Shown here piece by piece: positions 5,236 through 41,678 of a stretch of 51,883 nucleotides of DNA. The number at the start of each line of letters is the position of its first letter. The first letter of the stretch is position 1. Source of the DNA: a virus; the IMG/VR virus record IMGVR_UViG_3300024346_000098, positions 1 to 51,883 of that record; one strand, written 5' to 3'. The notes under the pieces were generated by a model. The model worked only from the letters and a program-made list of their open reading frames with translations. It made no database searches and was not told the DNA's origin. Made by a program: the position numbers and the translations under genes.

Positions 5236-7305
5236 ATGATTATTGCAGATGAAAAAAGAAAAGTTGTTCGCTCAAGTGGTTTTCAAGAATCAACATTCAA
5301 GATCGAGACCAGCTCCAAGGCTTTCAACATTCTCTCATCTAAGTTGTATAGCGATCAATATCAGGCTATCGTGCGAGAACTCTGCACAAACGCCTCAGAT
5401 GCCCACGTAAATGCCGGTATTAGCGATGTTCCAATCGAAGTCCACCTTCCAGACTTCATCGACCAATCGTTCTCTGTGCGTGATTATGGTAACGGTATCG
5501 ACCCCGAAGAATTCGAAAAGATTTACACTACGTACTTCTATTCTACCAAGACAACCTCTGACACTCAAGTCGGGTGTTTCGGCCTTGGTTCAAAAAGCCC
5601 CTTCGCATATACAAAGCAATTCACTGTAGAGAATAACTACAATGGACACAAGTATATCTACCTGTGTTTTGAAAATGAAAACGGCGAACCTTCTGTTTCC
5701 CTTATTGCTAATAGTCCTACTGAAGACAAGGGTGTAAAGGTTAGCTTTTCTGTTAAGAACTCTGACAACTCTAGCTTTAGAAAAGCCGCAGATAGAGTTT
5801 TAAGCTGGTTTGACCTCAAGCCAAAGTGCAATGACCAGTCTGGCAATATCAAAAACTTCATGAGTGGAAGAAAGGGCGAGAGGTTCGTTTTACTTGGCAA
5901 GGCCGATGGATTTGATAAGTATGAACATACTAATGATTACAACGCCAATATTTTTGTTCGTATGGGCCAAGTCATCTACCCTTGTGATAGTGAAACGCTA
6001 AAAGGCTTGTTCATTAATAAAACTGTTGTGATTAATGCTAACATAGGTGATGTTGACATTACCCCTTCTCGCGAATCGCTTGAATACAGAGCTAAGACTA
6101 ATAGTTTTATCGAGGAAGTCAAGAATGAATTTCTAAAAGATATTAGACAATCATGTCAAGATGTGATCAAGTCTGATGACAAGACTGAATTTGAAAAGTT
6201 TAAGACTGTCTTTGACCTAATCAATAATAGTGGAGTATCAAGAAAACTAATAAAAGATATCGTAGACAATGAGTACCAAACCTCACACGACGATTCTTAT
6301 TACTATGCACAATTATTTCAAGATAGCTTCTCTAAAGATATATCCTTTTGTCGATATGACAAATGGAGAGATAAAGTTGAGATTCTCAGAGTGGGAGACA
6401 AAGGATCTGCAAGGATTCACGAAAATGCTATTATTGTAATTAAGGACAAAAGGGTTAACTTAAATGCAAAAATAAAAGAGTTGATTAAAAATCATGTCAT
6501 GTGTGGCGTACACTATGCAAGTGTTTTTATCGTTGATCTTGCAGATAAAAACGTGCTTAAAGCTGGATACGGTTTCCAAGAATCAGATTTGCTTTACTCA
6601 TCTCAGTTGACATACAATAAAAATGCAAGTCCAAGCAGAGCAAGCACTGGTAATAACTGCACTGCTATGACCTATACAATCAATGGTGCAGATAGAAAAG
6701 GTATTAAGCTAGACAAAGATACTAAAGATGGATACTATCTTAAAGATGGCGAATATTATGGCTTAGACACTTCAAGTATTAATAACAGAGATGTAATTGG
6801 AGATAAGACAGTGTATATTTTTACTGACAATCAATTCAACAGTTTGAAAGTGGGCGAGCGTAACTTTGTAAATTTTCTAGATTATCTTGTTGATGAAGTC
6901 CAAACTAATAAGGACGAGATCATTCGCATGTTATCAAAAGATAATATGCGTAGTGATAAGACATGGAAAGCTCTTCAAGATATTCATGGGCTAACTGATG
7001 TTGCATCTATCATTGATAACTATGTACTTGAATATAATGATTGTCAATTAGATCATAGGAAGATAGGATATTACGAAGCGATTACAAATATCATTCGTCG
7101 TCATAATCATTCGCTATATCAAGAAATTGAAAAAGCAATCGGTGACTTGGATATCAAGCACCGTGAAGCCCAGAATAAAATCAAGGAAAAATACCCCCTG
7201 CTGAAAGTTTTGATTGACAACAGGGATTTTGACGGTATAATTAAACAAGTGGCCCAATACGTTGATCTGGTTTCTACAACAATTCAAAAGGATGGTGAAG
7301 TATGA
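5236..7305 (+). CDS. rIIA: RIIA-like GHKL ATPase
   Basis: This 689-residue protein resembles T4 RIIA, a membrane-associated protein involved in lysis inhibition and in tolerance of prophage exclusion systems. The N-terminal 200 residues show a GHKL ATP-binding fold: RELCTNASDAH (the N-box Asn/Asp, about 46-56), VRDYGNGID (G1 box, about 80-88), and GCFGLGSKSPFAY (G2 box, about 114-126). NIGDVDITPSRESLEY near 270 matches the conserved middle of the family. The rIIB start overlaps its stop by 4 nt, the classical order. The early part of the gene has distinctly higher GC than the small-gene region before it. Confidence 0.88.
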   Translation: MIIADEKRKVVRSSGFQESTFKIETSSKAFNILSSKLYSDQYQAIVRELCTNASDAHVNAGISDVPIEVHLPDFIDQSFSVRDYGNGIDPEEFEKIYTTYFYSTKTTSDTQVGCFGLGSKSPFAYTKQFTVENNYNGHKYIYLCFENENGEPSVSLIANSPTEDKGVKVSFSVKNSDNSSFRKAADRVLSWFDLKPKCNDQSGNIKNFMSGRKGERFVLLGKADGFDKYEHTNDYNANIFVRMGQVIYPCDSETLKGLFINKTVVINANIGDVDITPSRESLEYRAKTNSFIEEVKNEFLKDIRQSCQDVIKSDDKTEFEKFKTVFDLINNSGVSRKLIKDIVDNEYQTSHDDSYYYAQLFQDSFSKDISFCRYDKWRDKVEILRVGDKGSARIHENAIIVIKDKRVNLNAKIKELIKNHVMCGVHYASVFIVDLADKNVLKAGYGFQESDLLYSSQLTYNKNASPSRASTGNNCTAMTYTINGADRKGIKLDKDTKDGYYLKDGEYYGLDTSSINNRDVIGDKTVYIFTDNQFNSLKVGERNFVNFLDYLVDEVQTNKDEIIRMLSKDNMRSDKTWKALQDIHGLTDVASIIDNYVLEYNDCQLDHRKIGYYEAITNIIRRHNHSLYQEIEKAIGDLDIKHREAQNKIKEKYPLLKVLIDNRDFDGIIKQVAQYVDLVSTTIQKDGEV

Positions 7306-8198
7306 GTAACATCGCATTTATCGGAACAGAGAACTCCCTGACAGTTAGCTTCTTGGATACTGCTAAAGTATATAATATTGACGCAACTCATCTAAATTGG
7401 CAAGTGGTCTTAGATAAGCTAGACGCTGAAGACTATGAGGGTCTTGAAGAACTCCTAAGCGTCAAGAAAGCTGTTGAAGTATATGCTTCCGCTTCTGGAG
7501 TTGAAGTTGATGATATTGGTGTTAAGTATAATGGAAATTATATTGACAACTATGCCACTCAAAAGATTATGGAGTTTATGAAAGCAAAACTTCCAGTTAA
7601 GCCTCTTCTAAACTTTGTAAGTAAGGTAATGGCAAATCCTTCTCGCAGAGCAGTGCAAGAGCTTTATAAGTTCCTTGAGCATGGCCAAATGCCACTAACT
7701 CCAAGTGGTAATTTCTTGGCTTATAAATCAGTACAAGAAAATTACAAGGATTGGTATAGCGGCAAGTTCTCCAACACTGTGGGCAGCGAGCATACAATGG
7801 CCCGAAATGATGTGTGTGATGATCCTGATTTGGGCTGTAGCTATGGATTCCACGTTGGCACACTGGCCTACGCTACAGAGTTTAATCGCGGGTCTAATCG
7901 CCTGATGATTGTTGAAGTTGACCCGTCAGACGTTGTGAGCGTTCCTCACGACTGTCAGAATCAAAAGCTCAGGACGGCGAAGTATAAAGTTGTGGGAGAA
8001 TTTGAAAAACCTCTTGCCAACGACTATTCTTCGCAGTATAATAATGACGAGGACGAGGACGAAGACGAGGATGACGATGATTGCGGATTTCCAAACTGCG
8101 ATTGTGACGAACCTGATGAGTGCGATCAACTTCGCGAAGAGCTAGACGAGTGTCCTTATCACAACAAGCGTGATCAAAACGGCAGATTCTGTAAATAA
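7302..8198 (+). CDS. rIIB: RIIB-like protein with acidic, Cys-rich tail
   Basis: RIIB acts with RIIA in lysis inhibition in T4-like phages. The conserved core covers residues 1 to about 245 and includes LPVKPLLNFVSKVMANPSRRAVQELYKFLEHGQMPLTPSGNFLAYKSV-type sequence (given here only by its position, about 95-143) and an LGCSYGFHVGTLAYA segment. A stretch of about 14 consecutive Asp/Glu codons follows (about 249-262), then a Cys-rich end with cysteines in pairs, which could bind metal and is not part of the usual RIIB layout. Its stop codon forms one arm of the inverted repeat at 8196-8242. Confidence 0.85.
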   Translation: MSNIAFIGTENSLTVSFLDTAKVYNIDATHLNWQVVLDKLDAEDYEGLEELLSVKKAVEVYASASGVEVDDIGVKYNGNYIDNYATQKIMEFMKAKLPVKPLLNFVSKVMANPSRRAVQELYKFLEHGQMPLTPSGNFLAYKSVQENYKDWYSGKFSNTVGSEHTMARNDVCDDPDLGCSYGFHVGTLAYATEFNRGSNRLMIVEVDPSDVVSVPHDCQNQKLRTAKYKVVGEFEKPLANDYSSQYNNDEDEDEDEDDDDCGFPNCDCDEPDECDQLREELDECPYHNKRDQNGRFCK

Positions 8199-12796: not shown

Positions 12797-13921
12797 ATGA
12801 TCAAAACACAAAATGCTAATCGTCGTGGATTTACATTAATCGAACTATTGGTTGTAATCGCGATTATTGCGGTGCTGATTTCACTTCTGCTTCCAGCAGT
12901 GCAGTCAGCTAGAGAAGCAGCTAGGCGAGCGCAATGCACAAACAACCTAAAACAGTTAGCTTTGGCAGCACATAATTTTGAAAACGCACAAGGCACATTT
13001 CCACGCTCTGGAGAGCATAATGTAACAGTCGGCAGCACAACTTATAAGACGCAGGATTATCATAGTGCATTCACAATGATCCTTGGGAGTATTGAACAGG
13101 GTAATGTTTATAATCAGCTTAACTTGCAACTACCATATAATTTTTCTGGTAATGTAACTGCAAGTGCAACAGTGATTAACGCATTCTTGTGTCCAACAAA
13201 CGCACTTGAAAGTGATCGACAGAATGGACGCGATAGTATTGGATTTGGTTGTATTGACTATGCAACAGCTCCTTATACTGAGATCATGCCCGATGGCACT
13301 ACAAAGTGGCAAGCGGGTTATGTTGGGCCAACACCAGCTCCCGGATCATTGACTGGCAATGCTTATGGCACATCTGCTTATAAAGCGTATGGATGTACAG
13401 TATGCTCCTCTAGTAAAATTTATCAAATTGATCCAGCAAGAGTTTTGGATGGAACGGTCGATATTAATAAGGGTGGAGCAACGATTGGTGCAACGACAGA
13501 TGGCACATCTAATACTGCTATGTTTTATGAAGACACTGGTCGTAGCCCAAAGATGCAAGGCGTTGGTAACTACGCTTCTCCAACAACCGATTACGCTCCT
13601 GACTTGAATGCTCCTGCTCCTTATGTTCAAGGCGCTCGACGATCATGGAGATGGGGTGATCCTGACAATGCTGCTGGCGTTTCAAATGTTATCAACAACA
13701 ATAAAACGGGTGGATTTGGCAAGCCAAGTTGTGGTGCTAATGACTGGGGTATTCATGACTGCGGTCCAAACAATGAGATCTTCTCATGGCATCCCGGTGG
13801 AGCTAACATGGCAATGACAGATGGATCTGTAAGGTTTGTTAAAGATACAACAAATGCAGCGATTGTCAGAGCTTTGATCACGCGAGCTGGCAACGAAGTT
13901 ATCTCAGCCGATTCTTATTGA
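12797..13921 (+). CDS. DUF1559-type pseudopilin, planctomycete family
   Basis: This 374-residue protein has a type IV prepilin start: basic leader, cleavage expected after Gly11, Phe at +1 and Glu at +5 ([20 protein letters not shown]), then [25 protein letters not shown], the hallmark of the DUF1559 (SBP_bac_10) family. The C-terminus has the H-x9-DG motif ([18 protein letters not shown]). These proteins occur in large numbers in planctomycetes and pass to the cell surface by a type II secretion/pilus-type route. The gene has its own promoter, leader hairpin and terminator. Sampled lines (12901-12960, 13561-13620) are 50-52% GC against 25% in the gene before. It looks like a host-derived accessory gene (moron). 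Role on the host surface is inferred. Confidence 0.92.
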
Positions 13922-32337: not shown

Positions 32338-33039
32338 ATGTCTAATAAAAAATATGATCTTTCAGACGTACAACAGTTATTAAACGAAGGATATACTGTC
32401 CAAGATATAATGAAAATAAAAGGATGCAAGCATCATTTTACTATATATAGTTATATCAAACAAAACAATATTATATACGAATCAAGATATTCTAAAGATT
32501 TAACTGGATACGAATGGAATAATATGAAAGTTTTAAATTTAGACATATCGACAAAGAAAAAAGAAAGATATTGGAATATTGAATGTCATTGCGGAAACAC
32601 ATTTAGATTAAATACTTATGAAATTTTCAAAAGCAATCAAAAAAGTTGTGGATGCATCTTTAAAAGTAAAGCTTATAAATTAAGTCATCCAAACAGGACG
32701 GGTTATCAAGAAATATCAGGAAATTTCTGGTATGAACTTAAACAGAATGCAAAAGTTAGAAATATTGAATTTGATTTAAAAATAGAAGATTTGTGGGAAT
32801 TATTAGAATTTCAAAACATGAAATGTAAACTAAGTGGAATATGCATAGGATTTGGACTTGAAAATGGAATGAATTCAAGAAAAGACACTACAGCGTCATT
32901 AGACAGAATAGATTCTAAAAAAGGATATACAATAGATAATGTACAATGGGTACATAAAAGAATAAACATGATGAAACAAAGCTTATCTGATGATGATTTT
33001 ATATTTTTTTGTAAGGCGGTAGCAAATAATGTCAAATGA
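32338..33039 (+). CDS. HNH homing-type endonuclease, 233 aa
   Basis: A freestanding mobile endonuclease. The N-terminus (about 5-45) is a helix-turn-helix-like DNA reader. A CHCG...CGC zinc-type segment follows (about 83-105), and the C-terminal HNH motif reads CKLSGICI then TASLDRIDSKKGYTIDNVQWVHKRINMMK (about residues 161-210), with the typical Asp-Arg-Ile-Asp and Asn-x-Gln/Val order. Such enzymes cut intron-less or gene-less copies of the neighbouring locus and spread by repair. It sits between a coiled-coil gene and dnaB, overlapping dnaB by 11 nt. Confidence 0.85.
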   Translation: MSNKKYDLSDVQQLLNEGYTVQDIMKIKGCKHHFTIYSYIKQNNIIYESRYSKDLTGYEWNNMKVLNLDISTKKKERYWNIECHCGNTFRLNTYEIFKSNQKSCGCIFKSKAYKLSHPNRTGYQEISGNFWYELKQNAKVRNIEFDLKIEDLWELLEFQNMKCKLSGICIGFGLENGMNSRKDTTASLDRIDSKKGYTIDNVQWVHKRINMMKQSLSDDDFIFFCKAVANNVK

Positions 33040-35483: not shown

Positions 35484-36295
35484 TGGGTCAAATTTTAGCA
35501 TTTTCAGGAAAAAAAGGATCAGGAAAGAATACACTATCAAATTTTATACATGGATATCAATTAAAGTCGTATGGTTTAATTGCAGCTTTTGAAATTGCTG
35601 ACACTGGAGAGCTTGTAATTGAAACAGATGTTAAACAAGAGAATGGTAGAATTACAAGAGGTAAGGGGTCTATTGATGTAACCAGACTTGATATTGAATT
35701 TACTATTTGGGCAATGGATAATGTTTGGCCATTTATTAAGCATTATGCTTTTGCAACCGCATTAAAAGAGCTTGGGATTGGACTATTTGACTTGTCTCGC
35801 GAATCAGTTTATGGAACTGATGAACAGAAAAATTCACCAATTAAATATACTTGGGAAGATATGCCTACGAAGGTCAAAGGCAAAACAGGACCAATGAGCG
35901 GCAGAGAATTTATGCAATACTTTGGAACTGATATTTGTAGAAAGATTTATACGGATATCTGGACAGACCGAACAATCAAGGATATCGTAGCAGAAGAATC
36001 CAATTTAGCAATTATTACTGATGCCAGATTTGAAAACGAAGTAAGGGCAGTCCAAAATGCTGATGGAAAAGTTATTAGATTAACTAGATCGATAGATGAA
36101 GACTCTCATCCTAGCGAGTTAGCATTAGATACCTACGAATCATTTGATGCTATTATAGATAATAAGAATATGACAATAGAAGAGTCTTGCCATGAATTAA
36201 TTAAAATTTTGGATGGTTGGGGGTGGTTTGATAATAAAGTTATCATACCCCAAGAAAAGCCACTTAAAAAGCAAACAACCACAACAATCAAATGA
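35483..36295 (+). CDS. Deoxynucleoside monophosphate kinase (T4 gp1-like)
   Basis: Phosphorylates dNMPs, a phage kinase type best known from T4 gene 1. The P-loop is FSGKKGSGKNTLSN (about 7-20). The LID/substrate part has GREFMQYFGTDICRKIYTDIWTDR (about 141-164), and IITDARFENEV (about 174-184) carries the later Asp-Arg typical of the family. The 270-residue length includes an insertion with an acidic/basic loop near residues 45-70. It closes the nucleotide pathway of the phage and starts on the primase stop. Confidence 0.87.
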   Translation: MGQILAFSGKKGSGKNTLSNFIHGYQLKSYGLIAAFEIADTGELVIETDVKQENGRITRGKGSIDVTRLDIEFTIWAMDNVWPFIKHYAFATALKELGIGLFDLSRESVYGTDEQKNSPIKYTWEDMPTKVKGKTGPMSGREFMQYFGTDICRKIYTDIWTDRTIKDIVAEESNLAIITDARFENEVRAVQNADGKVIRLTRSIDEDSHPSELALDTYESFDAIIDNKNMTIEESCHELIKILDGWGWFDNKVIIPQEKPLKKQTTTTIK

Positions 36296-37323
36296 TTACC
36301 ACTTATTTTAGATCGTCCAGTCTTAACAACTGGAAGTATTGTGAACTCCAATACTTTATGACTTATGTTCTTGGACATTATTCCCCATCAGGGAAAAAGG
36401 CAGATTTGGGAACAATAACGCACGCAGTATTTGAAACATTAGCAATATGTAAAAAGAGGACTCAGTTCAATAAAAGATCTAAAATGAAAATCACTCAGGA
36501 ACCCTTGGGTGATTTTTCTTTTTCAGAGGATGAATTATTTACTGATGACTTTGTAAATAAAGTTTTAGATAGAAGTTTTGAATTTTACAAATCTAATTCC
36601 AAGCATAATGAATTTAATGAGAAAGATTATCAGTTTTGCTATAAAATGGTTTGGGATACATTAGCCTACAACAAAGGACAATTTGATCCACGTAATCGCA
36701 AGATTATTGATACTGAGCCTCACTTTGATATTCCAATCAATGAACCTTGGGCAAAATTTACTTTTGATGGGCCAGATGGGCCAATTTCTGGAAATCTTGC
36801 GATAAAAGGAACGATAGATCTTGTCACTGAGCTGCCAGATGGTACAATAGAAGTAATCGACTGGAAGACTGGCCAGAGGCTTGATTGGGCCACTGGAGAA
36901 CGCAAGGACTATGACAAACTGATGAAAGATACTCAGCTTTTACTATATCACTATGCTATTGGTAAATTGTACCCTAAGTATAGATATACATTAATGACTA
37001 TCTTTTTCTGTAGAGATGGTGGTCCATTTACGCTTGCTTTTGATAAAGATGATGATGAGTATTTTCTTAACAATACTTTAAAATCAATGTTCGAAGAGAT
37101 TAGAGCAAATCAAAAGCCTAAACCAGTATCACAAGATCGAAATAGTTTTAAATGTCAAAAGCTATGTCATTACTATAAGACAAATTGGCCGGGTACTGAA
37201 AAAACTATGTGTCATCATATCGAAGATCAAATCAAAACTATTGGAATGCAAAAAACGGTTGAAACATGCACTAGGCCGGGATTTGTGATTGGAACCTATA
37301 AAGATCCGGGAGCAGTTGAATGA
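36292..37323 (+). CDS. RecB/Cas4-like PD-(D/E)XK nuclease
   Basis: The first residues, TYFRSSSLNNWKYCELQYF, match the RecB/AddB/Cas4-type start with its first Cys (about C17). The catalytic strand is GTIDLVTELPDGTIEVIDWKTG (about 178-199; Asp, then Glu-Val-x-Asp-x-Lys). A later QLLLYHYAI helix with Gln and Tyr fits motif QxxxY. The end has four or more cysteines (CQKLCHYY and TMC), as in Fe-S-containing members. It is probably an exonuclease for recombination. A strong terminator-like hairpin lies in the gene at 36487-36523. Confidence 0.85.
   Translation: MITTYFRSSSLNNWKYCELQYFMTYVLGHYSPSGKKADLGTITHAVFETLAICKKRTQFNKRSKMKITQEPLGDFSFSEDELFTDDFVNKVLDRSFEFYKSNSKHNEFNEKDYQFCYKMVWDTLAYNKGQFDPRNRKIIDTEPHFDIPINEPWAKFTFDGPDGPISGNLAIKGTIDLVTELPDGTIEVIDWKTGQRLDWATGERKDYDKLMKDTQLLLYHYAIGKLYPKYRYTLMTIFFCRDGGPFTLAFDKDDDEYFLNNTLKSMFEEIRANQKPKPVSQDRNSFKCQKLCHYYKTNWPGTEKTMCHHIEDQIKTIGMQKTVETCTRPGFVIGTYKDPGAVE
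36487..36523 (+). terminator. Terminator-like hairpin inside the RecB-like nuclease gene
   Basis: A 10-bp stem (36487-36496 with 36507-36516, one G-T pair) is followed by TTTTTCTTTTT. In an intergenic place it would be called a terminator without doubt; here it falls at codons 66-78. Confidence 0.58.
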
Positions 37324-38822
37324 TATTGCCAGTGATAACAACACACTATTCATTGTTGAAAGGTTTCATCAAACCAGATGAAGCTGCCAAGAAATGTAAA
37401 GAATTAGGCTACACACATTGCTTAATTGCCGATATTGAAACTATTAGTGGTGTTGTTGATTTCTTCAATGCCATGAATAAAGCTGGAATCGTACCCATTC
37501 TTGGAATGCAAGCCGATAATGGGTATTACATTGCTAAATCTCTAAAAGGATATAGAGCTTTAATTAAGCTAGCATCTAAAGAAAAGATAGAATATGCCAA
37601 AGAAGACATGCAATTTTACACAGAAGATCAACTAGCAGTTATGCCAGTTTATTATGCTGAACAAAATGATGCGATTCTTCATAGAATGGTATTATGTCTT
37701 AACTTTAAAACTACACTCAAGAGAGCTAAAGATGTGGACATGGGAGAATATAAAAAGTTTTTCGAGTCTGATCATTATTTCTTTCATCCAACCGATAGGA
37801 TTATACCTAGCGAAAAGCAATACTTTGGAACTAAACAGTTATATTCTGAACTGCAACAGTATAGCATTCTTTCTAAGCCTAAATTACCTCGCGTAGATTG
37901 TGCAGATATGTCTGAGAATGATTATCTAACACAGTTATGTAGAAATGGCTGGCGAGCAAAGCTTATGCATTTAAAAGATGACAAGAAGAAAGAATATACT
38001 GATCGTATTAAGTATGAGTTGTCTGTTATTCATGGATTTGAACTATCTGGATACTTTTTAATTGTGCAAGACATCATTAACTATGTAAGAAAGAATGAGT
38101 GGCTACCGGGACCGGGGCGTGGAAGTGCTGGTGGATGTTTAGTATCATATTTACTTGGAATTATTGACATTGATCCCTTGAAATATGATTTACTATTCTC
38201 TAGATTTTTAAACGCTGGACGATTTACTAAAGACAACATCTCTTTGCCCGATATTGATATGGATGTTCCATCTGTTCACCGTGATGAGATTATTGACTAT
38301 ATCAAGAATAAGTATGGCAATGAAAGAGTGTATCAGATGATTACATTTGGGCGTCTACAAGGTCGATCAGCAGTTAAGGATGTTGCTAGAGTTTATGGTG
38401 ACTTATCTTTTAGTGAGCTGAATGAGATTACTGAAAGTTTACCGCAGGAGGCTAGTATTTCGGATGAGTTGGAAGAGATGGATATCAAATCAGTTATTCG
38501 ATGGACTCTTGAAAATGATCCAAAGAAACTTGAAAAGTGGTGTAGAATTGATAAGGAGGGCAATTTGTCTGGTGAGTTGTCAGATCTTTTCTCTCTTGCT
38601 ATAAGAATAGAAGGAACTTATAAATCTCAAGGAAAACATCCGGCGGGAGTGATTATTTCTAATGAAGATCTAATCAATGACGCACCTCTTATCACAGATA
38701 AGAATGGACATAGGTTAGTTGCATTTGAAATGCATGACTTGGATAAGGTTGGTTTGACTAAATTTGATGTGCTTGGGATTAACTTACTAGATAAAATTAT
38801 GCAGATTACAGACAAGGATTAA
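37320..38822 (+). CDS. dnaE-N: DNA polymerase III alpha, N-terminal half (split)
   Basis: The first part of a bacterial-type replicative polymerase, 500 residues. A degenerate PHP domain lies at about 1-180 (TTHYSLLKG in place of the HxH metal site). The palm has the GPGRGSAGGCLVSYLLG loop (264-280), catalytic PDIDMD (Asp311, Asp313) and, at the very end, KFDVLGI with the third catalytic Asp (about 483). It stops soon after, where normal alpha subunits continue into the GVFQLES segment. The remaining part is at 39752. No intein sequence is at the break, so the halves must join without covalent splicing. Overlaps the nuclease by 4 nt. Confidence 0.9.
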   Translation: MILPVITTHYSLLKGFIKPDEAAKKCKELGYTHCLIADIETISGVVDFFNAMNKAGIVPILGMQADNGYYIAKSLKGYRALIKLASKEKIEYAKEDMQFYTEDQLAVMPVYYAEQNDAILHRMVLCLNFKTTLKRAKDVDMGEYKKFFESDHYFFHPTDRIIPSEKQYFGTKQLYSELQQYSILSKPKLPRVDCADMSENDYLTQLCRNGWRAKLMHLKDDKKKEYTDRIKYELSVIHGFELSGYFLIVQDIINYVRKNEWLPGPGRGSAGGCLVSYLLGIIDIDPLKYDLLFSRFLNAGRFTKDNISLPDIDMDVPSVHRDEIIDYIKNKYGNERVYQMITFGRLQGRSAVKDVARVYGDLSFSELNEITESLPQEASISDELEEMDIKSVIRWTLENDPKKLEKWCRIDKEGNLSGELSDLFSLAIRIEGTYKSQGKHPAGVIISNEDLINDAPLITDKNGHRLVAFEMHDLDKVGLTKFDVLGINLLDKIMQITDKD

Positions 38823-38823
38823 C

Positions 38824-39057
38824 ATGAAGGAAAAATTTCTAGACTACGCAACTGTTATCAGGGATGGTAATGACATTGACTTTAAAGATTTGAGCTTATC
38901 TGATCTAAGAAATCATGTTCCTTGGTACAGGGAAAAGAAGAATGGAATATACCAAGTCCATAATAATAAGTATTCACAAATATTTTATGATCTAAATGAA
39001 GCTATTGATAAATTTTTAGAATTGAGAAAAACCTATGTCACTAAACAGCAATCGTGA
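38824..39057 (+). CDS. Hypothetical protein in the polymerase gap, 77 aa
   Basis: Not recognised. It lies between the two polymerase halves with the exonuclease gene, starting 1 nt after the N-half and overlapping the exonuclease by 23 nt. Acidic and basic residues alternate in helices. It has NHVPWYREKKNGIYQVHNNKYSQ-type central sequence. Its place suggests a replisome accessory, unproven. Confidence 0.6.
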   Translation: MKEKFLDYATVIRDGNDIDFKDLSLSDLRNHVPWYREKKNGIYQVHNNKYSQIFYDLNEAIDKFLELRKTYVTKQQS

Positions 39058-39742
39058 TTTTTTGATTTTTGACTTTGAAACTACAGGTAAGAATCCAAAT
39101 AAGTGCCAATTGACTCAAATCTCCGCAATTGTATTGCATGGTAAGAAATTAACACTCCAGCCGGGTGGAGTGTTTGATATTGAAGTGCGACCTGAGTTTG
39201 ATGACGAAAAAGCTATTAAAGCAGGGTTTGATCCTGTTGAGCAAGAAGCTCTTGATGTAACACGTAAAACCCGCGAACAATTAGAAAAAGCTGTCGGACC
39301 TAAAGTTGCTTGGCAGCAGTTCTCTAACTTTGTAACTAAGTTTAATATGAAGGGGTCTCCATACTTTGCCCCAATTCCTGTAGGATTTAATATCAATAAC
39401 TACGATATGCCAATCTTAAATAGGTATTGTCAAATGTATGGGCCATCTGAAGAAAAAACCGGAAAACAAAAGCTCGTTCATCAAATTTATAAAGTAGACA
39501 TGATGGATGTATTGTTTGGATGGTTTGAAGATAACGACTCAGTTAAGAAATTAAATATGGGATATCTTAGAGAGTTCTTTGGATTCCCCGAAGAGAGTAA
39601 AGCAAATGCTCACAATGCTATTTATGATGTTGTTGACACTGCAAATATTTTTGTCAGATTTATGAAGTATCAACGTAAGTTAAACTCTAAGACTAATTTT
39701 GAGAAGTCGTTTGCAAATGCTCCTATGGATATTACTATATAA
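39035..39742 (+). CDS. dnaQ: DnaQ-like 3'-5' exonuclease
   Basis: A proofreading nuclease of the DEDD superfamily, 235 residues. ExoI motif FDFETTG (about 12-18), ExoII region VGFNINNYDMPIL (about 113-125), and ExoIII AHNAIYDVVDT (about 185-195, with His and Asp) make it DEDDh type. It lies between the two parts of the polymerase gene, so it most likely proofreads for it. An 18-nt perfect inverted pair lies at 39151-39174 inside the gene. Confidence 0.9.
   Translation: MSLNSNRDFLIFDFETTGKNPNKCQLTQISAIVLHGKKLTLQPGGVFDIEVRPEFDDEKAIKAGFDPVEQEALDVTRKTREQLEKAVGPKVAWQQFSNFVTKFNMKGSPYFAPIPVGFNINNYDMPILNRYCQMYGPSEEKTGKQKLVHQIYKVDMMDVLFGWFEDNDSVKKLNMGYLREFFGFPEESKANAHNAIYDVVDTANIFVRFMKYQRKLNSKTNFEKSFANAPMDITI
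39151..39177 (+). other. Hairpin inside the exonuclease gene
   Basis: A perfect 9-bp stem (39151-39159 with 39166-39174) with a six-base loop. Only three T residues follow, so it is less like a terminator than the other internal hairpins. Confidence 0.4.
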
Positions 39743-39751
39743 GAGGAACTA

Positions 39752-41341
39752 ATGGTTCAAATTGAAGATATCAAAAATTTTGAAGACGAAGCGACTTGGG
39801 ATTTGATTTGTAGCGGAAGAACTAAGGGGGTTTTTCAATTGGAGTCCAGACTGGGTTCCAGTTGGGCAAAAAGGGCGCAACCTCGTTCTATTGACGAATT
39901 AGCTGACTTAGTATCCATTATTCGCCCCGGTACGCTAGAGGCCGAATTAGACGGTAAATCCATGACCAAGCACTACACAGACCGCAAGGCTAAGATTGAC
40001 GAGACCAAATATTTACACCCGGCACTGGAAACGGTACTGGGTAAAACTTATGGAATTATCGTTTATCAAGAACAAGCTATGCGTATTGCTACAGAAATTG
40101 CTGGCTTTACACCTGAAGAAGCTGACTCACTTCGTAAAGCTATGGGCAAAAAAGATGCAGCACTTATGAAAGAAGTTGAAGAGAAGTTTATCAATGGAGC
40201 AAAAGCTAAAGGGCTAGTAGATAACGTATCAGCAGCTAAGATTTTTGAATGGATTGCCGCATCTGCTCGCTATTCATTTAACAAATCTCACGCTGTGGCA
40301 TACGCTATCAATTCATTTGCTTCGGCTTATTGTAAAACTCACGATCCAATTAAGTTCTATACTGTATATTTAAACAATGCTTCTAGTAAACCAGACAAGC
40401 AACGAGAGATAAAAGAACTTGTTATGGATGCAAAGCTACAAGGAATTGAAGTTCTGCCCCCTAGACTTGACTTCTTTTATCGTCGCTTTACAATGGATAG
40501 AGCTAGGAATGTCATATACTTTGGATACAGCGATGTTAAGAATGTTGGAGAGGGTGAGCAAGAGACATTAGCTAGAGTTGTCAAAGAAGCGGAAGGCGTC
40601 ACAGGAAAGTCTATTAAAGAATTTAATTGGCTGGAGTGCTTATTTCTTATTGGCAATGAGATCAAGAAGAATGCATTTATTTCTATTATTAGTGTTGGTG
40701 GCTTAATTGGAAAGAACAATAAGCTAAACAGGAATAGAATGGTCTTTGAATTTGATATTTGGAATAAGCTAACTATCAAAGAACAAGGATGGATAATAGA
40801 CAATTGGAAAAGCACAAAGATGGCTAATAGTGCATTCATTGAGTTAGTCAATAGAATGATTAATAATAACGAGAAGATTAATTCTCGCAGGATTACTTCC
40901 GTGCTAGATATCTATCAAGCCTTGCAAAATCCTCCTTATTCACTTGAGGACGATTATGTGTGGATTGCAGATATAGAACAGAAGCTTATGGGGTGTTCTT
41001 TGACTTGTTCTCAAGCAGATAACTTGGCGTTAGATGATGTTAATATTACTTGCAAAGAAATTGCTAATGGCGAAGTAACTAAAATGCAAGATGCTAAATT
41101 AGCAGTGAAAATAAACCAAGTTAGAGAATATAAACTAAAGAGAGGACAACATGAGGGCGAGTTTATGGCATTTGTAATTGCCGAAGATAGTTCTGGTGAA
41201 TTAGATTCTATTACGGTTTTTTCTGAAGAATTTTCCCAGTATAAGAAGTTGCTTTTTGAGGGCAATACGGTATTATTATATGGAGAAGTCCAAGAGAAAA
41301 AGGAAAAATCATTTGTAGTTAAAAAAGTATTTCAAATTTAG
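39752..41341 (+). CDS. dnaE-C: DNA polymerase III alpha, C-terminal half (split)
   Basis: The second part of the polymerase, 529 residues. It starts with FEDEATWDLICSGRTKGVFQLES (about 10-32), which follows directly on the last residues of the N-half in normal alpha subunits. The fingers contain RPGTLEAE, GIIVYQEQAMRIA (about 106-118) and FNKSHAVAYA (about 180-189). A helix-hairpin-helix/beta-binding type region with GYSDVKNVGEGEQETL (about 266-281) and an OB-fold (about 437-529) complete it. It has its own GAGGA ribosome site 9 nt after the exonuclease. Confidence 0.92.
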   Translation: MVQIEDIKNFEDEATWDLICSGRTKGVFQLESRLGSSWAKRAQPRSIDELADLVSIIRPGTLEAELDGKSMTKHYTDRKAKIDETKYLHPALETVLGKTYGIIVYQEQAMRIATEIAGFTPEEADSLRKAMGKKDAALMKEVEEKFINGAKAKGLVDNVSAAKIFEWIAASARYSFNKSHAVAYAINSFASAYCKTHDPIKFYTVYLNNASSKPDKQREIKELVMDAKLQGIEVLPPRLDFFYRRFTMDRARNVIYFGYSDVKNVGEGEQETLARVVKEAEGVTGKSIKEFNWLECLFLIGNEIKKNAFISIISVGGLIGKNNKLNRNRMVFEFDIWNKLTIKEQGWIIDNWKSTKMANSAFIELVNRMINNNEKINSRRITSVLDIYQALQNPPYSLEDDYVWIADIEQKLMGCSLTCSQADNLALDDVNITCKEIANGEVTKMQDAKLAVKINQVREYKLKRGQHEGEFMAFVIAEDSSGELDSITVFSEEFSQYKKLLFEGNTVLLYGEVQEKKEKSFVVKKVFQI

Positions 41342-41354
41342 GAGTTCGCACTTT

Positions 41355-41678
41355 ATGAATAGTTGTCATTTTGTAGGAAAGTTGGCAGCAGATCCTGAGC
41401 TAAGAGAAGTTAACGGCACACATGTCGTTAATTTTTGTTTAGCTGTTGAAGATTATCGCAAGGATAAAGAAGGAGAAAAACATCGTCAAGTTAATTTTCT
41501 TGATTTTGAAGCTTGGGATAGCGGAGCTACAACCATAGCTAAACACTTTAAAAAAGGCGATATGTTAATTATTGAATCGGAAGCTCGGCAACACAAGTGG
41601 ACATTCAATGATCAAAAAAGACAAAAAATTGTATTTAGGGTCAAAACATTTAAATCAGCAGGATGTAAAACGGAATAA
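41355..41678 (+). CDS. ssb: Single-stranded DNA-binding protein
   Basis: An OB-fold SSB of 107 residues with the family start (SCHFVGKLAADPELREV, about 3-19), the central VNFLDFEAWDSGATTIAKHFKKGD (about 46-69) and a final QKIVFRVKTF strand. It ends just after the OB-fold with SAGCKTE and lacks the acidic DDDIPF-type tail that recruits partners in bacterial SSBs. It follows the C-half of the polymerase by 13 nt. Confidence 0.9.
   Translation: MNSCHFVGKLAADPELREVNGTHVVNFCLAVEDYRKDKEGEKHRQVNFLDFEAWDSGATTIAKHFKKGDMLIIESEARQHKWTFNDQKRQKIVFRVKTFKSAGCKTE

Follow-up and report, generated by a model that had tools for sequence, protein, structure and literature searches.

A phage DNA polymerase III alpha encoded as two genes cut at the palm/fingers linker, with a DnaQ-like exonuclease gene in the gap

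Bacterial chromosomes are copied by family C DNA polymerases, whose alpha subunit is regarded as a single chain, and the locus described here raises the question of whether such an enzyme may also work as 2 separate polypeptides. The locus lies in a 51,883-base virus record (IMGVR_UViG_3300024346_000098), which we refer to as the window and to the whole of which all locus coordinates apply. In it, DNA polymerase III alpha is divided between 2 genes, designated here the N-half and the C-half, and the genes for a 77-aa protein (P77) and a DnaQ-like exonuclease (EXO) lie between them. Our preferred reading, to which we assign a probability of about 0.82, is that the phage's own family C replicase is made as 2 polypeptides that assemble non-covalently.

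A sequence-only reading of this DNA had claimed both the split and the presence of these 2 genes in the gap. The split was borne out by domain hits, by alignment to the Escherichia coli enzyme and by comparison with relatives, and the contents of the gap by the open reading frames (ORFs) and the matches of EXO to PF00929 and phrog_192. The halves are separate ORFs, each with a start and a stop, and not a DnaE encoded as a single polypeptide; the C-half starts at its own ATG, which is preceded by AAGAGGA. On alignment to the solved structure of E. coli Pol III alpha, window residues D311, D313 and D483 corresponded to D401, D403 and D555, residue 491 of the N-half to E. coli residue 563, and residue 10 of the C-half to E. 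coli residue 591. The cut maps to the variable linker that joins palm and fingers, between residues ~572 and ~583 of the E. coli enzyme, and from the latter 2 correspondences it follows that no conserved part of the enzyme is missing, only variable linker. Likewise, alignment with unsplit relatives identified the linker as the sole part affected by the cut. This mapping agrees with the earlier claim that the N-half ends shortly after the third catalytic aspartate, in the motif KFDVLGI. The companion claim, that the C-half takes up the sequence at the GVFQLES region, needs correction: the C-half does follow on from the N-half, but it starts ~26 residues before GVFQLES, within the linker. The N chain has all 3 catalytic acids, and the C chain has the fingers. 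The C-half model (predicted local distance difference test score, pLDDT, of 89.8, with values below 50 at residues 1-3 only) folds as a complete unit and matches the Pol III alpha structures 3e0d, 4iqj and 5fku over ~530 columns. It should be noted that the OB match is weak in the window C-half, where HHH_6 and OB fall under the Pfam cut-off, and that the PHP HxH motif, recognisable in 59 of 125 N-halves, is absent from that of the window.

We observed the same palm/fingers cut in 128 distinct loci among those retrieved, 125 of which, from many metagenomes, have EXO in the gap and the same gene order as the window; the loci were chosen by similarity, and 128 and 125 are counts, not frequencies. 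Identity to the window N-half ranged from ~47% to 100% in the first 2 scans, and the motifs at both break ends are retained in nearly all loci. Gap length ranges from 152 to 4110 nt, a spread that comes from additional genes inserted in some loci. Among these are mobile-type endonuclease VII/HNH-family inserts in L007 and L021 (related loci are numbered with the prefix L), which stand beside the conserved genes and belong to the same phrog families as an endonuclease VII/HNH-like gene elsewhere in the window; the window gap itself has none. In 2 other loci (L079 2193-3005; L080 6848-9125), genes that by eye resemble those for NAD-dependent sugar-nucleotide enzymes are located between the N-half and the small ORF. 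All 4 genes of the window locus are under strong purifying selection: in comparisons with the near relatives L003, L008 and L013, ratios of nonsynonymous to synonymous divergence (dN/dS) were 0.015-0.042 for the N-half, 0-0.056 for P77, 0.012-0.024 for EXO and 0.039-0.067 for the C-half.

We detected no A-, B- or C-family polymerase other than the split enzyme, which is apparently the sole replicase of these phages. Eight records with the palm/fingers cut (type A), 148-230 kb in length, each encode one PolIII palm and one fingers domain, and no family A or family B polymerase was found in these 8 records, the completeness of which is not established. PolB was found in none of 12 records examined.

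The 4 genes also appear to travel together. Nucleotide identity of the N-P77-EXO-C block to L003 and L008 was 0.84-0.98, with edges near the N-half start and the C-half end, and flanking genes were ~0.7-0.8 identical, with the exception of DnaB (0.90 in L008). The same island was evident in synonymous divergence (dS) from L003, which was 0.34 for the N-half, 0.43 for EXO and 0.55 for the C-half, as against 2.0 for the upstream PD-(D/E)XK nuclease gene. L022 presents the reverse pattern, with a close PD-(D/E)XK gene and a distant polymerase block. From the sharp-edged island and its reverse in L022, the N-P77-EXO-C block seems to move between phages as one unit. Protein distances of the 2 halves correlated at 0.94, the highest value among the genes compared. 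The SSB and PD-(D/E)XK genes are conserved neighbours, and the identity profile places both outside the co-exchanged block.

EXO of the window has the motifs of a DEDDh enzyme, DFETTG (DxE, motif I) and HNAIYD (HxAxxD, motif III), and both DxE and HxAxxD are retained in 118 of 118 full-length relatives; phrog_192, which it matches, is annotated as 'DNA polymerase exonuclease subunit'. A short F-x-x-S-F-like C-terminal tail, present in 107 of the 118, is a possible docking peptide. With EXO as query, there was no match at 1e-5 in the phage collection; the viral contigs yielded 16 loci, mostly on contigs already in the clade, and the new one among the 16, L498, has all 4 genes in the order seen in the window. 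The EXO and P77 genes overlap by 23 nt. The 77-aa family is present in this gap in many loci and has a predicted alpha-beta-beta-beta-beta-alpha fold (model pLDDT 88), with no convincing Pfam or PHROG match and no PDB or viral fold match at E<=0.001. On the other side of the gap, C-halves of one subgroup (L029, L034, L037, L044) are extended at the N terminus, ahead of the fingers, by a segment that contains a conserved CGC motif and may be a metal-binding element for docking at the cut.

We propose that the N chain would supply the PHP, palm and thumb with the 3 metal-binding aspartates, and the C chain the fingers, which would position template and incoming nucleotide, together with the HhH/OB part. 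The break would fall in the flexible linker joining the palm helix to the fingers, where it may cost least, and by analogy the 2 chains would assemble as gp43A and gp43B of Aeromonas phage 25 do for family B. The gap-encoded exonuclease would be the proofreading subunit, P77 would probably be a fourth small subunit or an assembly factor, and co-localisation and overlap of the genes would permit co-translation. As to origin, most likely a mobile element would have entered an unbroken dnaE at the linker and later been lost, with replication genes retained or captured in the gap; a mobile endonuclease is plausible as that element, given the endonuclease VII/HNH-family genes in the gaps of L007 and L021 and elsewhere in the window. 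Several observations weigh against this account. No DnaN-type clamp domain was found in the 8 type-A records, which leaves processivity unexplained, and the identity island could be due in part to homing drive and not to co-adaptation. One subgroup has, in place of the 77-aa family, a ~60-aa ORF whose relation to it is uncertain. Finally, in no locus is an endonuclease the sole occupant of the palm/fingers gap, and a cultured phage with the same linker cut, Rossellomorea phage phiT1 (L227, PV767480; gp20/gp19/gp18), has only a 49-aa ORF between its polymerase genes.

The sequence-only reading had gone further, and supposed an active site assembled from 2 chains with the exonuclease perhaps as bridge. 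The location of palm and fingers on different chains is in keeping with the first part of that claim, but evidence from other loci speaks against the bridge as a requirement. In its strict form, the exonuclease would be an obligatory bridge that holds both halves and the active site together and would for that reason be fixed in the gap. Its persistence in 125 of 128 gaps, despite their variation in length and the extra genes, would fit such a role, as would the F-x-x-S-F-like tail and an EXO-C distance correlation of 0.93. Yet gene order alone is no proof of contact; in a second group of phages, described below, the exonuclease gene sits in a different gap; and phiT1, L315 and L323, cut at the same place, lack a DnaQ-type exonuclease between the halves, so that the cut does not in itself require a bridge. 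We regard an obligatory bridge as rather doubtful, although, since these 3 loci are outside the exonuclease clade, bridging could be a later acquisition within it. A combined reading can be put forward tentatively: the core may have 4 obligate separate subunits, the palm/fingers seam may be a recurrent natural fission point with captured replication nucleases, and the exonuclease may either hold the chains or couple proofreading to their opening and closing.

How often the seam was opened was addressed with a maximum-likelihood tree, in which the exonuclease-bearing split forms one clade (support 100/100). Its sister group (support 86/52) contains the unsplit L324 and 2 loci with the same palm/fingers cut: L315 (3788-4975), with genes for RNase HII (PF01351, 1.1e-35) and a zinc-ribbon protein in the gap, and L323, with 3 small genes unrelated to the exonuclease. 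phiT1 is a separate lineage in an otherwise unsplit neighbourhood. A single origin for all cuts at this site was rejected on the densely sampled tree (approximately unbiased, AU, test, p 3.4e-5), which indicates at least 2 fissions at the same palm/fingers seam. With phiT1 omitted, a single origin that excludes the unsplit L324 was not rejected (p 0.063), and a clade shared with phiT1 was not rejected on 2 earlier, more sparsely sampled trees (AU p 0.29 and 0.36). A bacterial origin of the split was considered and set aside, as the 80 best bacterial loci were all unsplit at this seam. Conversely, the two-gene state might be old in this phage lineage, with unsplit relatives derived by fusion and the cut owing nothing to an insertion. 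The sister group, with both split and unsplit members, requires at least one re-fusion or several splits, and to this extent favours an old split; but the 80 bacterial DnaE loci and most sampled phage DnaE have a short continuous linker, and phiT1 is split amid unsplit neighbours, and we consider an old split improbable.

Other cuts in dnaE were also observed. The second group (type B; 64 distinct loci, L316 2373-6560 and L402-L481) is cut at PHP/palm and has a DnaQ-type exonuclease in that gap in 64 of 64. The hidden Markov model of the type-A exonucleases found no match among those of type B even at E=10, and the 2 types are on this evidence probably different exonuclease lineages. Among cultured phages, dnaE is annotated as 2 polymerase genes in phiT1, Larrie (L226), Jayan (L141) and Alicyclobacillus phage MMB025 (L142); Larrie and Jayan are cut within the palm, and MMB025 is cut in the fingers, with an endonuclease.

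It is very unlikely that the halves are rejoined, by trans-splicing inteins, an RNA intron or ribosomal bypassing, into one ordinary polymerase in the cell. It is true that relatives L053, L134 and L346 have split inteins in the same C-half, at FNKSH, so that joining mechanisms exist in these phages. These loci, together with L364, also served as positive controls: the Pfam search that detected their inteins gave no Hint/intein match at E<0.1 in either window half, which rules out an intein at the break and is in accord with the earlier remark that the break ends lack intein motifs. An RNA intron is ruled out by the Rfam results, with no group I or II intron at the gathering threshold and, within the gap, none even at E<=1. 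In addition, the N-half of relatives extends just 12-40 residues beyond its last motif, which leaves no room for an N-intein, and the gap genes are conserved, under selection, in different frames and of varying length. The inteins themselves are at L053 12712-15659, L134 8904-11760, L346 11967-12854 and L364 7707-10046; that of L053 has a LAGLIDADG endonuclease in its gap, and L364 carries an HNH-bearing, contiguous intein within the fingers. Three separate pieces encode the polymerase in L053 and in L134, and presumably the 2 intein-bearing ones alone are ligated.

That one or both halves are decaying pseudogenes, or that an assembly or sequencing error produced the arrangement, has a negligible chance: nothing in the window supports it, the same structure recurs in 125 distinct loci, which excludes a misassembly joining the halves, dN/dS is 0.012-0.07, catalytic motifs persist in nearly all loci, and the large records have no other A-, B- or C-family polymerase. 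An assembly artefact of another kind does exist in the collection, namely a contig end (L002 14067-14623) chimerically joined to a bacterial-type dnaE fragment (SAR11-like by eye).

The features of the window that bear on this report are collected in Table 1. By Pfam and PHROG matches, the genes to the 5' side of the N-half encode DnaB, primase, a deoxynucleoside monophosphate kinase and the PD-(D/E)XK nuclease. The window also has genes resembling rIIA and rIIB (5236-8198), though its replicase is of DnaE type and not a T4-type PolB, and a gene (12797-13921) for a DUF1559 protein with an N-terminal prepilin-type methylation motif. DUF1559 genes are also located between the exonuclease and C-half genes of L346 (8725-11080, with DUF1501 in addition) and L361 (9175-10248). 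DUF1559 and DUF1501 are families typical of Planctomycetota, and their presence may point to Planctomycetota hosts, or to genes taken from such hosts.

Table 1. Positions of the split polymerase genes, catalytic residues and other features in the window
Feature	Position (strand)	Supporting match or alignment
DNA polymerase III alpha, N-half: PHP, palm and thumb (500 aa)	37320..38822 (+)	PF07733 3e-74; PHP 7.5e-14; phrog_405 2e-116
D311/D313, catalytic Asp pair (PDIDMD)	38250..38258 (+)	aligned with E. coli D401/D403
D483, third catalytic Asp (KFDVLGI)	38766..38768 (+)	aligned with E. coli D555
77-aa protein (P77), between halves	38824..39057 (+)	38-member alignment
DnaQ-like DEDDh 3'-5' exonuclease (EXO; 235 aa)	39035..39742 (+)	PF00929 RNase_T 2.7e-10; phrog_192 6.9e-25
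DNA polymerase III alpha, C-half: fingers, HhH region and OB (529 aa)	39752..41341 (+)	PF17657 9.3e-46
SSB gene, directly 3' of C-half	41355..41678 (+)	PF00436 3.4e-19
PD-(D/E)XK exonuclease (Cas4/RecB type), upstream of N-half	36292..37323 (+)	PF12705 6.5e-18
Endonuclease VII/HNH-like gene	32338..33039 (+)	phrog_3322 1.6e-26; phrog_1035

Several known systems resemble this one in part. The split dnaE of cyanobacteria is cut at FNKSH in the fingers and is ligated by split-intein protein splicing; the phage enzyme is likewise encoded in 2 genes but differs in its palm/fingers cut and lack of an intein, and it is L053, L134 and L346 that share the FNKSH split inteins with cyanobacterial dnaE. 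PolC carries its exonuclease within the polymerase, as a domain inside PHP. As in PolC and the E. coli Pol III core (alpha-epsilon), a polymerase is here accompanied by a DnaQ-type proofreader, although alpha is one chain in both of those enzymes; the second group, with PHP, exonuclease and palm-fingers as separate genes, resembles the PolC order. phiT1 shares the linker cut, and differs in its separate lineage and in having no exonuclease in the gap. Outside family C, gp43A and gp43B of Aeromonas phage 25, a split family B polymerase with the homing endonuclease gene seg43 at the split, co-purify and show polymerase activity (PMC2988022). The present locus is like those of Aeromonas phages 25 and 44RR in that a phage replicase is encoded in 2 adjacent genes with no intein; it is unlike them in that the polymerase is of family C and the gap holds a gene for a putative proofreading subunit in place of an endonuclease or untranslated sequence. 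Jumbo phages of group 2.2 have a minimal PolIII alpha in 2 standalone proteins, encoded by distant genes, alongside a PolB replicase (Iyer et al. 2021, PMC7824862). In both cases a C-family catalytic module is divided into 2 proteins, but the enzyme described here is an almost complete DnaE (PHP, fingers and OB) encoded by adjacent genes that enclose one for an exonuclease, and PolB was not detected alongside it.

Split phage polymerases, including a split PolIII module in jumbo phages, are thus already known, and we found no account of the present arrangement in the open-access literature searched. What is new is a nearly complete two-gene DnaE, apparently the sole replicase of a large phage group, with a putative proofreader fixed in the cut, as well as the repeated appearance of this cut and another type of cut that follows the same logic. 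That a widespread group of phages apparently relies on the two-chain version implies that palm and fingers need not share one polypeptide. If our reading is correct, these phages have a naturally two-chain C-family polymerase, which would be a ready two-component system for studies of structure and mechanism and would allow a test of how a replicase copes with being cut. The seam, it appears, can be opened repeatedly in evolution, and its recurrence, together with the nucleases in its gaps (exonuclease and RNase HII), may point to a rule by which multi-subunit enzymes and replication operons arise from single chains.

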